Shown here: positions 8,666 through 53,459 of the stretch, one piece after another
Layout: every line of letters starts with the position of its first letter
Numbering within the stretch: position 1 is the first letter of the stretch
Assembly: GCA_005885245.1 (NCBI GenBank)
Contig: VAWR01000055.1
Location: 1 to 53,459 of the forward strand
From: Actinomycetota bacterium
GTDB lineage: Bacteria > Actinomycetota > Thermoleophilia > Gaiellales > Gaiellaceae
Length of the DNA: 53,459 nucleotides
Reading direction: 5' to 3'
Translations under genes and position numbers: made by a program
Notes under the pieces: generated by a model
The model's database searches: none
Told to the model about the DNA's origin: nothing
The model's input: only the letters and a program-made list of their open reading frames with translations

Positions 8666-9207
8666 ACTACAACCGCGTGCCCGGGCTCGTCGAGGTCCTC
8701 GAGGCGCACGGCGAGACGACGCTCGTCGTCGACACGCCGCGCCTCCTCGAGGCGGCACGTCATCTCAGGGACGAGCTCGGCTTCGACTTCCTGTCGGACA
8801 TCGCAGCAACCGACTATCTCGGCTGGGACTCCAAGGACGTTTCCGGCTACATCGGCACGCCTGCAGGACGCGACCTCAACAAGCCGTCCACGCAGGGCCA
8901 TCAGCGGCTCCCACGGCCCAAGGCGCGACGCTTCTCGCTCAGCTACCACCTGCTGGGGATGCGCGAAGGCGCACCGCGGGTCCGGCTGCAGGCCTGGGTG
9001 GACGACGGCGAGCCGGTGCAGAGCCTGGTGTCGGTCTGGCCGACCGCCGATTGGCACGAACGCGAGGCCTGGGATCTGATGGGGATCCGCTTCGACGGGC
9101 ACCCCAACCACCGGCGCATCCTCATGGACGACGACTGGGAGGGGCATCCGCTGCGCAAGGACTATCCGATCGGCGGCGAGCCGGTGCGTTTTTCGGGGGA
9201 GGAGTAG
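8662..9207 (+). CDS. nuoC: NADH-quinone oxidoreductase subunit C (probable CTG start)
   Basis: About 181 aa. The conserved 30-kDa subunit motif [24 protein letters not shown] and [11 protein letters not shown] are present. No ATG precedes the conserved region. The best start is CTG 8662: it overlaps the nuoB stop as CTGA and has GGAG 7 nt upstream. The alternative GTG 8677 has no ribosome-binding site. It is a hydrophilic connecting-module subunit, and its stop overlaps the GTG of nuoD (TAGTG). Confidence 0.92.
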
Positions 9208-10469
9208 TGGCGCTCGCCCCCGAGCGGCCTCGGATCTACGAGGGCTCGCGCATACCGTCGCCCATCCCGAGTGTCCTCGAGCTCTCCAACGCGCTGAGGT
9301 CCTCGCAGGACGTCCTCACGGTCAACTTCGGACCGAACCATCCCTCGACGCACGGAGTGCTGCGACTCGTCGTCGACCTGCACGGCGAGGAGGTGGTGGG
9401 CCTCGCCGCGGTGGTCGGCTATCTGCACACCGGGTTCGAGAAGAACATGGAGCAGAAGAGCTGGTGGAAGGCGATCACCTACGCGCCCCGCATCGACTAC
9501 GTCTCCTTCCAGAACAACGAGCTCGTGTTCGTGCTCGCCGTCGAGAAGCTGCTGCAGATCGACGTCCCGCCGCGCGCGACCTGGATGCGCATGCTGCTTG
9601 CCGAGCTCAACCGCATCCACTCGCATCTGGTGTGGCTCGGAACGGCCGCGCTGGAGCTCGGTGCGATCTCCATGTTCTGGTACTGCTTCCGCGAGCGCGA
9701 CCGCATCCTGGATTTGTTCGAGCTCGTCGCGGGCTTCCGGATGCACACGCGGTACTTCCAGGTAGGCGGCCTCGCCGAGGACATTCCGCCGGGTTTCTTC
9801 GACGAGTGCGCGAAGTTCGTCGAGCTGATGCCGCACGCGATCGACGACTACGAGTCGCTCGTCGATCGAAACCAGATCTGGCTCGAGCGGACGCAGGGAA
9901 TCGGCCTGCTCTCCCGCGCGGACGCGATCGCGCTCGGCCAGTCCGGCCCCGTGCTGCGGGGCTCGGGCGTCGACTGGGATCTTCGCCGGGCGCAGCCCTA
10001 CCTCGCCTACGACCAGGTCGACTTCCGCGTGCCCGTGTACCAGGAGGGCGACGTCTACGCCCGCTATCGCGTCCGCATGGAGGAGATGCGCGAATCGGTG
10101 CGGATCGTCGACCAGGCGCTGAGGCGCTTGCCGGGCGGAGCCTGGATCGCGGACGACCGCAAGGTCGTGTTGCCCCCACGGGAAGAGCTCCACACGTCGA
10201 TGGAATCCCTCATCCACCACTTCAAGATCGTCACCGAGGGCTTCAGTGTTCCCGAAGGAGAGGTCTACGTCACGGTCGAGTCTCCCCGCGGCGAGCTTGG
10301 TTGCTATGTCGTCTCGGACGGCGGGCCCAGACCCTGGCGGGTCAAGTTCCGCGCGCCGTCATTCGTCGCGCTCGAGGCGACGGCGACGTGCATGAGGCAG
10401 GCTCTCGTCGCGGATTTGATCGCCATCGTCGGCTCGCTCGACACGGTCATGGGCGAGGTCGACCGGTGA
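9207..10469 (+). CDS. nuoD: NADH-quinone oxidoreductase subunit D
   Basis: About 420 aa from GTG 9207, with GGGGGAGGAG just upstream. The 49-kDa subunit forms the quinone-binding cavity with NuoB. Visible hallmarks: FGPNHPSTHGVLRL, GYLHTGFEKNME, RIDYVSFQNNE and the C-terminal SPRGELGCYVVSDGGPRPWR. The soluble connecting module lies on the cytoplasmic face. Stop overlaps nuoE as GTGA. Confidence 0.97.
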   Translation: MALAPERPRIYEGSRIPSPIPSVLELSNALRSSQDVLTVNFGPNHPSTHGVLRLVVDLHGEEVVGLAAVVGYLHTGFEKNMEQKSWWKAITYAPRIDYVSFQNNELVFVLAVEKLLQIDVPPRATWMRMLLAELNRIHSHLVWLGTAALELGAISMFWYCFRERDRILDLFELVAGFRMHTRYFQVGGLAEDIPPGFFDECAKFVELMPHAIDDYESLVDRNQIWLERTQGIGLLSRADAIALGQSGPVLRGSGVDWDLRRAQPYLAYDQVDFRVPVYQEGDVYARYRVRMEEMRESVRIVDQALRRLPGGAWIADDRKVVLPPREELHTSMESLIHHFKIVTEGFSVPEGEVYVTVESPRGELGCYVVSDGGPRPWRVKFRAPSFVALEATATCMRQALVADLIAIVGSLDTVMGEVDR

Positions 10470-49519: not shown

Positions 49520-50301
49520 TGCTGCTGCAGCTGCACGAATGGGGAGACCGCACGGCTCCCCCCGTCGTTGCGCTGCACGGGATCGGCGGTTTCGGTCGTC
49601 GTTTTCGCAAGCTCGCGGAAGAGCATCTCGAGGGCTACCGCGTCGTCGCGCCCGACCTGCGCGGACACGGCTCTTCGTCATGGGAGCCGCCGTGGACGAT
49701 CGCAACGCATGTCTCCGACGTCCTCGAGACGATCGAGCACGCGGGCATCGAGCGCGCAGCTTTCGTCGGCCACTCGTACGGCGGCCGGTTGATCCTCGAG
49801 CTCGCCGACCTCGCGCCCGATCGCATCGAACGAGCCGTGCTCCTCGATCCTGCGATCGAGCTCCTGCCTCACGTGGGCTTCGACTTCGCCGAGCGCGAGC
49901 GAAACAACGGTGCCTTTGCCCTGCCGCAAGAGGCCGTCGAGGAGCGACTCGCGTTCGACACGACGACGCCGCGCGCCTTCGTCGAGGAAGACGTCCGGGA
50001 GCATCTCGACCAGGGAACGGACGGGCTCTACCGCTATCGCTATTGCCGGAGCGCAGTCGTCACGGCCTACGGGGAGCTGTGCACGCCTCCGCCGCCGCCC
50101 GAGACTCTGCGCGTTTCCACACTGCTCGTGCACGCAGGCGAATTCGGACTGGTTCGAGAGGAGCAGCTCGACGCCTACATCACCGTGCTCGGTGAACTGC
50201 TCGAGGTCGTCGAGGTTCCGGGCGGGCACATGGTCTTCTGGGACGCCTACGACGAGACGGCGAGCGCCCTCGAGCGCTTCCTAGAGGATCCGAGCGCCTA
50301 G
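49519..50301 (+). CDS. Alpha/beta hydrolase
   Basis: 260 aa. Oxyanion motif LHGIGG, APDLRGHGSS, nucleophile elbow GHSYGG (Ser about residue 89), and the late His in PGGHMVFWD, so the triad is present. Small cap (GFDFAERERNNGAFALPQE). Substrate unknown. Translationally coupled to the etf fusion, so it may act on the same pathway. The 3' end overlaps the arginase gene by 21 bp (convergent). Confidence 0.87.
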   Translation: MLLQLHEWGDRTAPPVVALHGIGGFGRRFRKLAEEHLEGYRVVAPDLRGHGSSSWEPPWTIATHVSDVLETIEHAGIERAAFVGHSYGGRLILELADLAPDRIERAVLLDPAIELLPHVGFDFAERERNNGAFALPQEAVEERLAFDTTTPRAFVEEDVREHLDQGTDGLYRYRYCRSAVVTAYGELCTPPPPPETLRVSTLLVHAGEFGLVREEQLDAYITVLGELLEVVEVPGGHMVFWDAYDETASALERFLEDPSA

Positions 50302-51192
50302 CGCGCTCGCGACGAGCTCCACGGCGAGCTTGCCCGTCTCGTTCTCTCGATCGAGGACGGGGTTGACCTCCACCACGTCGAGCGACGACGCAAGGGCGGA
50401 CTCTGCGATGAGCTCCATCGCGAGGTGCGCCTCACGGTAGGAGAGACCGCCTCGAACCGGCGTGCCGACACCGGGAGCGACGTCTGGATCGAGCGCGTCC
50501 ATGTCCAGGCTGACGTGGACGAAGCCCGAGCCGGCGACATGCGCGAGCGCTTCGCGGAGCACGCGCTCGACGCCGAGCCGGTCGACGTCGCTCATCGTGA
50601 ACACCCTGGCGTCGAGCGTGCCGAGGAGCGCTCGTTCGCCTTCGTCGAGCGCGCGCACGCCGACGAGTGCCACGCGCCCCTCTGCGAGAGCGGGTAGGCC
50701 CCAGCCGTCCCCCTGGAAACGTTCGCCGGCGAGACCCAGCGCAGCGGCGAGCACCATTCCGTGGACGTTTCCGCTCGGACTCGTCTCCGGGCTGTTGAGG
50801 TCACCGTGTGCGTCGATCCAGATCGCACCGCCGGGCCCGTGGACGTCCCGCAGGCCGGCGAGCGTTCCCAGCGCAACCGTGTGGTCTCCACCGAGAACGA
50901 CGGGAAAGAGCTCGTCGCGTGCAGCGCCGGCCACGAGTCCCGCGATCCGCTGCGACGTCTCCTTGATCTGTGGCAGGAAGCGGGCGTGTTCGTCTCCGGT
51001 GGCGGTCGCCTCTGCAACGGCCGTCTCCACGTTGCCGAGGTCGACGTATTCGTGGCCCAGGTCTGCGATCCGGGCCGCGAGCCCCGCATAGCGAATCGCG
51101 GACGGACCCATGTCAACGCCACGACGGCCGGCGCCCAGGTCGAGAGCGGCGCCGATCACGGCCACTTTGCGACGAAGAGGTTGCGGAGACAT
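50281..51192 (-). CDS. rocF: Arginase
   Basis: 303 aa from ATG 51192; an in-frame TTG at 51201 is less likely. Hydrolyses arginine to ornithine and urea. Mn-binding motifs: VVLGGDHTVALG, IWIDAHGDLNSPETSPSGNVHGM and VHVSLDMDALDPDVAPGVGTPVRGG. RRGVDMGPSAIRYAGL is the family N-terminal motif. Agmatinase is a relative, but this N-terminus favours arginase. A TAGCCT hexamer is 8 nt before the ATG. Confidence 0.92.
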   Translation of the reverse strand: MSPQPLRRKVAVIGAALDLGAGRRGVDMGPSAIRYAGLAARIADLGHEYVDLGNVETAVAEATATGDEHARFLPQIKETSQRIAGLVAGAARDELFPVVLGGDHTVALGTLAGLRDVHGPGGAIWIDAHGDLNSPETSPSGNVHGMVLAAALGLAGERFQGDGWGLPALAEGRVALVGVRALDEGERALLGTLDARVFTMSDVDRLGVERVLREALAHVAGSGFVHVSLDMDALDPDVAPGVGTPVRGGLSYREAHLAMELIAESALASSLDVVEVNPVLDRENETGKLAVELVASALGARIL

Positions 51193-51200
51193 GGCCGACA

Positions 51201-51210
51201 AGGCTAACTT
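51201..51210. promoter_or_regulatory. Overlapping divergent -10 elements, arginase and response regulator
   Basis: AGGCTAACTT contains TAACTT (plus strand, 8 nt before ATG 51219) and TAGCCT (minus strand, 8 nt before ATG 51192). The whole gap is 26 bp. Same arrangement as fumC and the P1 peptidase. Confidence 0.4.
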
Positions 51211-51218
51211 GCGAGTCC

Positions 51219-51611
51219 ATGGGGGAGGCTCAAGCGGCAGGCACGATCAGGGTGCTGCTCGCCGACGACGACGAACCGTTTCTCGGCGCCCTCTCACCGT
51301 TGATCGAACGCCAGCCCGAGCTCGCGGTGGTCGGAAGGGCCCTGGACGGCCTCGCCGCGATCGAGCTCGCCGACGAGCTGTCGCCGGACGCGGTTGTGAT
51401 CGACCTGCACATGCCGCGTCTGGACGGCGTCAGCGCCGTCGCCCGCCTGCGCCGGGATCATCCGAGCATGTGCGTAATCGCGTTGACCGGCGACCAGCAG
51501 GCCGCCCTCCACGAGGCCGTCACCGAGGCGGGAGCCGACGCGGTCCTGCTGAAGGACGAGTTCGTGGACGTCCTGGTCGACAGACTCGCGGCGGCCAAAG
51601 CCGGCTCCTGA
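51219..51611 (+). CDS. Receiver-only response regulator
   Basis: 130 aa. Single CheY-like domain: acidic pair VLLADDDEPFL, phosphoacceptor Asp in AVVIDLHMPRLDGVSAV (about residue 62), Thr in IALTGD and Lys in VLLKDEFVD. No output domain and no adjacent histidine kinase. Divergent from arginase through a shared promoter. Confidence 0.9.
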   Translation: MGEAQAAGTIRVLLADDDEPFLGALSPLIERQPELAVVGRALDGLAAIELADELSPDAVVIDLHMPRLDGVSAVARLRRDHPSMCVIALTGDQQAALHEAVTEAGADAVLLKDEFVDVLVDRLAAAKAGS

Positions 51612-51665
51612 TCCACAACGCATGAAATTGCGACGAAGCCTTCAGGCGAGGAGACGCGCGGCGTA

Positions 51666-51709: not shown

Positions 51710-51754
51710 TGGCGAGGGCCGGAATCGAACCGGCGACACCACGGTTTTCAGCCG
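51710..51754 (-). repeat. Partial tRNA-Phe (3' 45 nt), likely att site
   Basis: Identical over 45 bp to the 3' end of the intact tRNA-Phe at 52522-52594: acceptor 3' strand, T arm, variable loop and anticodon loop with GAA. Same orientation. Identity stops abruptly at 51755. This is what integration into a tRNA 3' end leaves behind. Confidence 0.85.
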
Positions 51755-51897
51755 AGGACTCCACCGCAAGGCGCGGTGTCCCCGGCCGGACCGGCGACCC
51801 GTAATTTCCGAGGCCGGCCGCGAGCCGGTCGTAGGCGCGCGCGGACTGGACCCGCAGGCGGGCGGCCGGCTGCTCGGCGGGCCTCGTCGGCCCGGAC
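51755..51897. other. Non-coding 143 bp at the far end of the mini-island
   Basis: Very GC-rich. Holds a short hairpin (CACCGC-GCCTT-GCGGTG) immediately next to the tRNA fragment. No gene or promoter seen. Confidence 0.4.
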
Positions 51898-52299
51898 CTA
51901 AGCCAACGGCTGGACGATGATCAGCGAGTTGCCGTCCGGGTCGCGGAACCAGAACGTCGGCGGCACGGGCCCGCCGAAGCGCGTGACTTCCTCGTCGACA
52001 TCGACACCGGCAGCCTTCAAGGCGGCGTGGTCGGCATCGACGTCCGAGCTGTCAAGGCAGATCCCCGTCTGGCTGCCGCCTGCCTCCCGGTCCGGAGGCG
52101 GCGGGGCGAGGGCGATAGTCGTCGGGGTCCCGGGGATGGCGACCTCGACCCAACGCATGTCCGGCCCCATCGGCACGTCGACGACCTTCTCGAAGCCGAG
52201 CGTGTCGACGTAGAAGTCGATCGCACGATCCGTGTCGGAGATCGTGACGCAGACGCGGCCGACCTGGGTGAGATTGAGCTTGGACTGCACCTTCGACAT
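51898..52299 (-). CDS. Glyoxalase/bleomycin-resistance (VOC) fold protein
   Basis: 133 aa with a strong AGGAGG 6 nt before ATG 52299, unusual among the leaderless neighbours. Two beta-alpha-beta-beta-beta modules: VGRVCVTISDTDRAIDFYVDTLGFEKVVDVPMG and TGICLDSSDVDADHAALKAAGVDVDEEVTRFGG, ending FWFRDPDGNSLIIVQPL. The Val in place of the first metal His suggests metal binding may differ. Substrate unknown. The only gene between the two tRNA-Phe repeats. Confidence 0.87.
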   Translation of the reverse strand: MSKVQSKLNLTQVGRVCVTISDTDRAIDFYVDTLGFEKVVDVPMGPDMRWVEVAIPGTPTTIALAPPPPDREAGGSQTGICLDSSDVDADHAALKAAGVDVDEEVTRFGGPVPPTFWFRDPDGNSLIIVQPLA

Positions 52300-52521
52300 C
52301 TTGAGCCTCCTACTCGTCGGATTCGTCTCTTAGACGCTCGCAGTGCCAAAAACTCATCGCTTCGCCGGACCCCGCCGATTGGCTCTCGGGATTGTGACGA
52401 CGCTACGCTTGGACTATGGCTCCGTGCCGTGAACGCCTTGAAAGGGACATCCAGAGCCGAAGCGAGATCCAGCCCACCTACAGGGTCGTCTCGCCGCTGG
52501 TTAGTACAACGTCCGAAAAAG
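52300..52521. other. Non-coding 222 bp between the VOC gene and tRNA-Phe
   Basis: Lower GC than surroundings, no ORF with a supportable start, and no clear promoter consensus. It holds the 5-T tract (minus strand, 52516-52520) that directly follows the tRNA. Confidence 0.4.
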
Positions 52522-52594
52522 TGGCGAGGGCCGGAATCGAACCGGCGACACCACGGTTTTCAGCCGTGTGCTCTACCGACTGAGCTACCTCGCC
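52522..52594 (-). tRNA. tRNA-Phe (GAA)
   Basis: 73 nt. Acceptor GGCGAGG pairs with CCTCGCC, discriminator A, no encoded CCA. D arm GCTC-AGTCGGTA-GAGC. Anticodon stem CACGG/CCGTG with loop CTGAAAA, anticodon GAA. T arm GCCGG-TTCGATT-CCGGC. A TTTTT tract follows one base after the discriminator and can act in termination. Confidence 0.97.
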
Positions 52595-52623
52595 GAGCGG
52601 CCGCAGTGTAGCCGCGGTCGTTC

Positions 52624-53459
52624 CTACGACGCCCCGAGCCGGGCTCCGTCCTCGAGACCTTCGCGCAGGATGTCGAGCCAGACCGCGGCGTTGCGGTCGT
52701 ACTCGTCCCTCGTCGCCCGGGAAGCCTTCGCGAGGAACCGCTCCCAGGTGACCGCTCGGCAGAGCATGCCGAGGAGATAGCCGTCGGCGAACATCGTGCG
52801 CAGTTCGTCGAGCGGTGCGAACCGCGTCCAGGGCTCGAGGTAGACGTCTCGCTGCCGGAGGACTTCAGCCGCGTCGGGCTCGAGCCCTCGACGGTAGGCG
52901 ATGTCTCGCAGCGTGTTCGTGAGACCGGCGAAGGGATGCGAGACCGCGCCTTCGCCCCAGTCGAGGAGACGAGCATGCCCCTCGGCGACGAAGACGTTGC
53001 CCTCGTGCACCTCTTCATGGATGAGGGTCATCGGCACGGGTGTTGCAAGCCTGGCCCCCACGCGCTCGAGAGCCGGCCCCAGAGCGACAAGCCGCGCGCG
53101 CTCGACTGGCACGGCCTCGAGACCGCGAACGTCCTCGACGAGGCGCGGATAGTCGGCCAGCAGCGTCCAAGGACGCTTGTCCGGCACCCCCAGCGCCAGG
53201 AGCTCGTCGACGTGTGCGATCTGGGCGAGCTGCAACTCGGCGTACTGCCGCAAGATGTCCTCCCACGCGGGCGCCGCCGCGTCGACTTCGAGCAGCGATC
53301 GGAGCTGCGGCCCTCCGTCACGCGTCAGGAGCCAGGTGCCCTCCCAGGCAATGACCTCGGGACCCACTTCGGGATTGCGCCCCGAGACGGCCGCCGTCAG
53401 CGCAGCCTCGAAGGCCATGACGGGAGCGGGCTCCTTGAACCAGACACGGCCCTCGCTCG
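52624..53459 (-). CDS. Aminoglycoside-phosphotransferase-like kinase, 5' partial
   Basis: The frame is open to the window edge (upstream residues SEGRVWFKEPAPV join to MAFEAAL), so the ATG at 53418 is probably internal and the gene begins outside. APH-fold C-lobe: catalytic loop LIHEEVHEGNVFV (HxDxxxxN pattern with Glu in the Asp position) and metal motif LLDWGEGAVSHPFAGL. RVWFKEP resembles the N-lobe strand of maintenance-of-metabolites kinases in actinobacteria. Resistance is not implied. Substrate unknown. Confidence 0.8.
   Translation of the reverse strand, partial: SEGRVWFKEPAPVMAFEAALTAAVSGRNPEVGPEVIAWEGTWLLTRDGGPQLRSLLEVDAAAPAWEDILRQYAELQLAQIAHVDELLALGVPDKRPWTLLADYPRLVEDVRGLEAVPVERARLVALGPALERVGARLATPVPMTLIHEEVHEGNVFVAEGHARLLDWGEGAVSHPFAGLTNTLRDIAYRRGLEPDAAEVLRQRDVYLEPWTRFAPLDELRTMFADGYLLGMLCRAVTWERFLAKASRATRDEYDRNAAVWLDILREGLEDGARLGAS

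Follow-up and report, generated by a model that had tools for sequence, protein, structure and literature searches.

A putative 0.8-kb att-bounded islet without an integrase of its own, at a tRNA-Phe gene that changes orientation among soil Thermoleophilia

The locus described here is probably an integrase-less, att-bounded islet, inserted by site-specific recombination at the anticodon arm of tRNA-Phe. It resembles what a tRNA-targeting integrase would produce, and its status as a mobile element is putative. The locus is more complex than a simple island, with the tRNA gene inverted and a second gene gained on its other side. The window, i.e. the whole stretch of 53,459 bases that was analysed, is contig C138 of genome G000 (3.2 Mb in 213 contigs, 90.5% complete), and is known from one metagenome-assembled contig, without reads. 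The closest named relatives of this genome are metagenome-assembled soil Actinobacteria, part of which are labelled Thermoleophilia. The features of the locus are as follows.

50281 to 51201, minus strand: arginase, conserved left flank
51220 to 51612, plus strand: response-regulator-receiver-like gene (RR), conserved left flank, named by reading, without a family search
51710 to 51754, minus strand: exact 45-bp copy of tRNA-Phe positions 29-73, an att-like direct repeat (sequence match)
51752 to 51785, minus strand: GC-rich hairpin with a 3-nt bulge, adjoining the break of the fragment (z -1.3 for a 201-nt stretch, significance not established)
51755 to 51897, no strand: non-coding left part of the islet, 143 bp, 79% GC (sequence)
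51898 to 52299, minus strand: VOC/glyoxalase-like gene of 133 aa, the cargo (Pfam PF00903, E 7e-17)
52300 to 52520, no strand: non-coding right part of the islet, 221 bp, 58% GC, containing the VOC 5' region (sequence)
52521 to 52594, minus strand: intact tRNA-Phe (GAA), found by ARAGORN, the sole tRNA in the window and the sole full tRNA-Phe found in the assembly
52605 to 52610, minus strand: TACACT, the likely -10 box of tRNA-Phe (comparison with relatives)
52624 to 53418, minus strand: APH-like gene (PF01636), whose 5' end continues in contig C126

An exact copy of the tRNA 3' end in the same orientation had been reported in the initial annotation, and we confirmed it. The 45-mer occurs twice with 0 mismatches, at 51710-51754 and at 52522-52566, against a chance expectation of 0 in 100 shuffles. 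In an alignment anchored at the 3' end, the copies agree throughout positions 29-73 (45/45) and differ at position 74. Over positions 1-28 they agree at 11/28 only (shuffle p 0.11), with 8/12 matches in the bases adjoining the break (p 0.003), a weak extension of the similarity. Past the tRNA 3' end, alignment of the two flanks found no similarity. The copy has the tRNA 3' end as one limit and the anticodon arm as the other. Tyrosine recombinases that use tRNA genes act at the anticodon arm or the tRNA 3' end, and Williams, in 2002, reportedly distinguished anticodon-loop and T-loop classes of tRNA integration sites.

The contents of the islet are also as first described. ORFs and Pfam agree on a single VOC gene and non-coding DNA between the copies; no integrase lies there, and VOC is the only ORF of note. 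The strong AGGAGG noted at this gene is present, 6 nt ahead of its ATG. The same-genus genomes with a close VOC orthologue (74-86% protein identity) are G003, G004 and G007 only, and the gene neighbourhood differs in every carrier. None was found in G001, G002, G005, G006 and G008, several of these genomes being incomplete, so that gaps may account for some of the absences. As cargo, VOC is an ordinary accessory gene, patchy in the genus. We rejected the idea that VOC moves as a unit of its own, since the DNA similarity to other copies covers the gene and up to ~60 bp upstream (the stretch conserved with G003), without special ends. The hallmarks of a phage satellite (PICI-like) are missing, with no integrase or phage-related genes between the copies. 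A search for further copies of the islet in G000 gave none, just weak matches over the tRNA part. Among the matches listed from phage and plasmid records, the best islet matches cover the tRNA region only, and neither the 41-nt tRNA core nor VOC was found in viral contigs.

The flanking genes are conserved across the family, in the order arginase, RR, tRNA-Phe, methyltransferase, SAM-hydroxide-adenosyltransferase-like gene and ABC transporter genes. On the right flank the methyltransferase was checked by Pfam, and the SAM-hydroxide-adenosyltransferase-like and ABC transporter names come from reading of the sequence. The tRNA-Phe spot sits between two convergent conserved units. The window contig stops inside the APH-like gene, where contig C126 overlaps it at 97% over 675 bp; this overlap is not 100%, which points to strain mixture in the assembly. 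The expected conserved right flank was found on C126. The APH-like gene, on the other side of tRNA-Phe from the islet, is missing at this place in relatives and is lineage-specific.

The initial annotation had named identical spacing and cargo in all relatives as fatal to its reading; the relatives have the tRNA alone or other genes. In G003, G008 and G009, which are close in sequence, only tRNA-Phe lies between RR, tens of bases away at most, and the next conserved gene, for a small protein (f16). The fragment, VOC and APH are absent there, and are thus additions in the lineage of the window. Strains lacking the insert had been proposed as a further check, and this was answered in part. The insert is absent in the nearest relatives, yet their tRNA stands in the other orientation, and an exact empty site, in the same orientation and species, was found in no genome examined. 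Nearest to it comes G007, which has no insert and whose single tRNA, oriented as in the window, lies 29 bp beyond the RR match.

Other cargo at the same site had been proposed as a check too, and it was found in G004, of the same genus. Here a copy of tRNA-Phe positions 32-74 lies beside RR, followed by an insert of ~3.05 kb and the intact tRNA, in the same orientation. Identity of this copy begins at position 32, where the anticodon loop starts, and runs to position 74. The insert holds pieces of an apparent cyclase/ATPase/TPR regulator (TPR by Pfam, the rest by reading). The layout of G004 is independent of that of the window, with other cargo. The fragment breaks of the two genomes (positions 29 and 32) fall within 3 bases of each other, both in the anticodon arm; on the other side, the repeats reach the tRNA 3' end to the base or to within one base. 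Clear anticodon-arm copies are limited to these two among 103 family genomes.

As for recombinases, the suggested search for an integrase at the same tRNA-Phe was successful in G013, of the same family. A broken P4-type integrase starts ~120 bp past the tRNA-Phe 3' end, with Arm-DNA-bind_3, Phage_int_M and Phage_integrase domains, split by a frameshift. No second copy of the tRNA-Phe 3' end was found in G013, whose contig ends ahead of any distal att site. Judging from this arrangement, an integrase does use tRNA-Phe in this family. In G000, the PF00589 search recovered two adjacent Xer-like genes where contig C141 ends; C150 begins with an integrase C-terminus, probably the broken end of the second Xer-like gene. 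We rejected a dedicated integrase elsewhere in G000, as this profile search of the 90.5% complete assembly gave none beyond these. The recombinases found in G004 (85% complete) are the Xer-like pair only, similarly placed. With no recombinase in the islet and only the Xer-like pair in the genome, the islet cannot move itself.

The site carries a range of other genes in other species. These include an MFS transporter, an AlkZ-related protein with an EF-G-like GTPase, a short-chain dehydrogenase, a LanC-like protein, a cyclase-ATPase regulator, an amidase, a FUSC transporter and a xanthine/uracil permease. They occur singly or in short sets. For most of these inserts there is no adjoining tRNA repeat, and no integrase was found among 30 scanned cargo proteins, so that the site is a hot spot used by more than one route.

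Several other tRNA-Phe copies were seen in the family. In G006 (L039, 2015-2062, flipped coordinates) the 5' half of tRNA-Phe (1-48) lies upstream of the intact gene and ends at a strong palindrome. In G021 (L046, 5365-5388), 24 nt of the tRNA-Phe 3' end (51-74) recur 34 bp beyond the gene, with a small gene directly after; this matches what a T-loop att site would leave. In G014 (L085/L086) two contigs each end right beside a tRNA-Phe copy, which suggests a repeat or a strain mixture at the site. G062 (L084, ~8996-10248, flipped coordinates) has one intact tRNA-Phe and two 3' fragments, one of them inverted, in 172-bp repeats of 97% identity with palindromic spacers. These fragments reflect segmental duplication rather than att sites. 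By eye, a GC-rich hairpin adjoins each tRNA fragment break in the window, G004, G006 and G062, in genomes that are GC-rich.

Under the reading that we favour, 51755-52521 (~0.8 kb) would have been inserted at the tRNA-Phe anticodon arm, the enzyme presumably being a tyrosine recombinase. The incoming DNA would have carried its own tRNA 3' half, rebuilding an intact gene, and the original 3' half of the chromosome would have been displaced to 51710-51754. Deletion within a larger element may have left the islet as a CIME-like remnant, or a recombinase may have integrated a short cassette in trans; the data fit either. The tRNA has also been inverted in this lineage, and a gene has been gained on the other side too. 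At least one further event is needed, because the tRNA orientation differs from that of the nearest relatives. The order of these events, and any mobility that the islet retains, are likewise our inference. The initial annotation had read the locus as the layout left at a tRNA att site, and the boundaries, the unshared flanks, the other cargo in G004 and the G013 integrase at the same tRNA favour this, as do the absence of the insert in relatives and the patchy occurrence of VOC; a simple island is too simple an account. Against it count the lack of a recombinase or recombinase remnant in the islet, the Xer-like pair as the sole find in G000 and G004, the small number of clear anticodon-arm copies (two among 103 family genomes), the mostly repeat-free inserts at the site in relatives, and G062, where segmental duplication gave tRNA-Phe 3' fragments as well.

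Homology-facilitated illegitimate recombination, which needs no integrase, is rather unlikely. A foreign tRNA-Phe would pair with the resident one on one side, and an illegitimate join inside the tRNA on the other side would leave the 3' fragment. PMC3240628 describes such recombination for several bacteria. It would suit an islet without an integrase in a genome with the Xer-like pair only, as well as the single ordinary genes, mostly without repeats, found at the site in relatives. Against it stand the two exact fragments, which break within 3 bases of each other at the anticodon arm (29 in G000, 32 in G004), and the other limit of the repeats, no more than one base from the tRNA 3' end. We regard as a long shot a broader scheme for this Thermoleophilia family, where one-gene cassettes bounded by tRNA-Phe 3' halves would be integrated in trans, repeated re-orientation of tRNA-Phe would belong to the same process, and the locus would capture genes while lacking an integrase of its own.

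Segmental duplication of the tRNA 3' region has a precedent in G062, where two 3' fragments arose with the native downstream spacer around one intact gene. It is improbable for the window, as the G062 block includes flank, whereas in the window and G004 the identity does not go past the tRNA 3' end, even with an unmutated fragment. Duplication of the G062 kind was rejected on these unshared flanks. A tandem tRNA-Phe gene with a decayed 5' half deserves hardly any credence: it could account for the 8/12 matches next to the break, but 45/45 identity gives way abruptly to 11/28, and no examined relative has two intact tandem tRNA-Phe genes at the site (G006 has the upstream 5' half-gene). Point mutation of a tandem copy, raised in the initial annotation, was dropped as the main account on that abrupt fall. 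An assembly artefact, with the contig misjoined in a 45-bp repeat common to related soil species, draws on the 213 contigs of this metagenome-assembled genome and the strain mixture at the C126 overlap, and is very improbable as a misjoin within the repeat presupposes that the sample does contain a genuine truncated tRNA, and the same structure is present in G004, a separate assembly.

The site-specific insertion that we favour has parallels in known systems. As in tRNA-targeted tyrosine-recombinase elements, an intact tRNA and a direct repeat of its 3' part bound the insert, and the repeat runs from the anticodon arm to the tRNA 3' end with unshared flanks (29-73; 32-74 in G004). An integrase gene inside the element, as these have, is absent. 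Of the known kinds, CIMEs and tRNA-bordered additive islands come nearest, the islet being a very small further case. CIMEs are cis-mobilizable elements at the 3' end of a gene that keep both att sites and cargo without integration or transfer genes (PMC5704250). The islet likewise has att-like repeats and cargo and no such genes, at a tRNA 3' end, but it is far smaller (0.8 kb, one gene) and no parental ICE or IME was seen; as a CIME-like remnant it would once have had, and lost, integrase and transfer genes. As for an ICE or IME with the same att site, a broken integrase lies at the same tRNA in G013, on a contig that ends before a distal att.

The additive flexible genomic island fGI-2 of Methylophilaceae has tRNA 3'-end repeats, variable cargo and islands down to 330 bp and one gene (PMC10872708). 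It resembles the islet in the repeat beside a very small island with variable cargo, and differs in using tRNA-Lys and 20-bp repeats rather than tRNA-Phe and a 45-bp repeat from the anticodon arm. In archaea, the tRNA island PYG1 of Pyrococcus yayanosii (PMC9897764) also has an intact tRNA and a partial copy as direct repeats (44 bp, against 45 bp here), but spans ~21 kb, and the islet has no integrase. Tycheposons, as discussed in PMC10872708, span 4-200 kb and have a tyrosine recombinase as their mark. They share cargo inserted beside a tRNA with the islet, which at 0.8 kb, with one VOC gene and no tyrosine recombinase, falls outside them.

Lastly, we surveyed tRNA-Phe orientation in family f1 (loci L034-L047 and L084-L123, plus window 52521-52594). 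Most relatives have their tRNA-Phe on the other strand, and in the window the gene is inverted with respect to the closest ones. A quick tree of 45 genomes needs at least 11 changes of tRNA-Phe orientation relative to the conserved flanking genes, close to the mean of 12.8 changes given by random dealing of the orientation labels. In contrast, the relative strand of arginase and the SAM-like gene is constant in 39/40. The same tree joins G000 (reversed) with G009 (not reversed) with a support of 88, so the inversion in G000 looks recent. In relatives of either orientation, TAGACT, TACACT or TAAACT is found at about the same distance before tRNA-Phe. This promoter-like TAxACT precedes the gene in both orientations, and the tRNA unit is therefore probably functional either way. 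Inverted repeats such as those at the G062 locus (172 bp, 97%) are one possible route to the repeated flips. Inversion between inverted att copies was rejected, since by reasoning this flips the spacer and not the tRNA. A literature search on inverted tRNA genes found nothing.

Judging from this islet, att-bounded insertions in uncultured soil Thermoleophilia can be very small, and tRNA-Phe stands out as a hot spot of integration and gene turnover in these organisms. The flipping is the less expected part, the kind of islet being already known. An essential single tRNA gene that inverts at least 11 times between fixed neighbours is a testable oddity, and it raises the question of what turns so short a unit repeatedly while the flanking genes hold their position.
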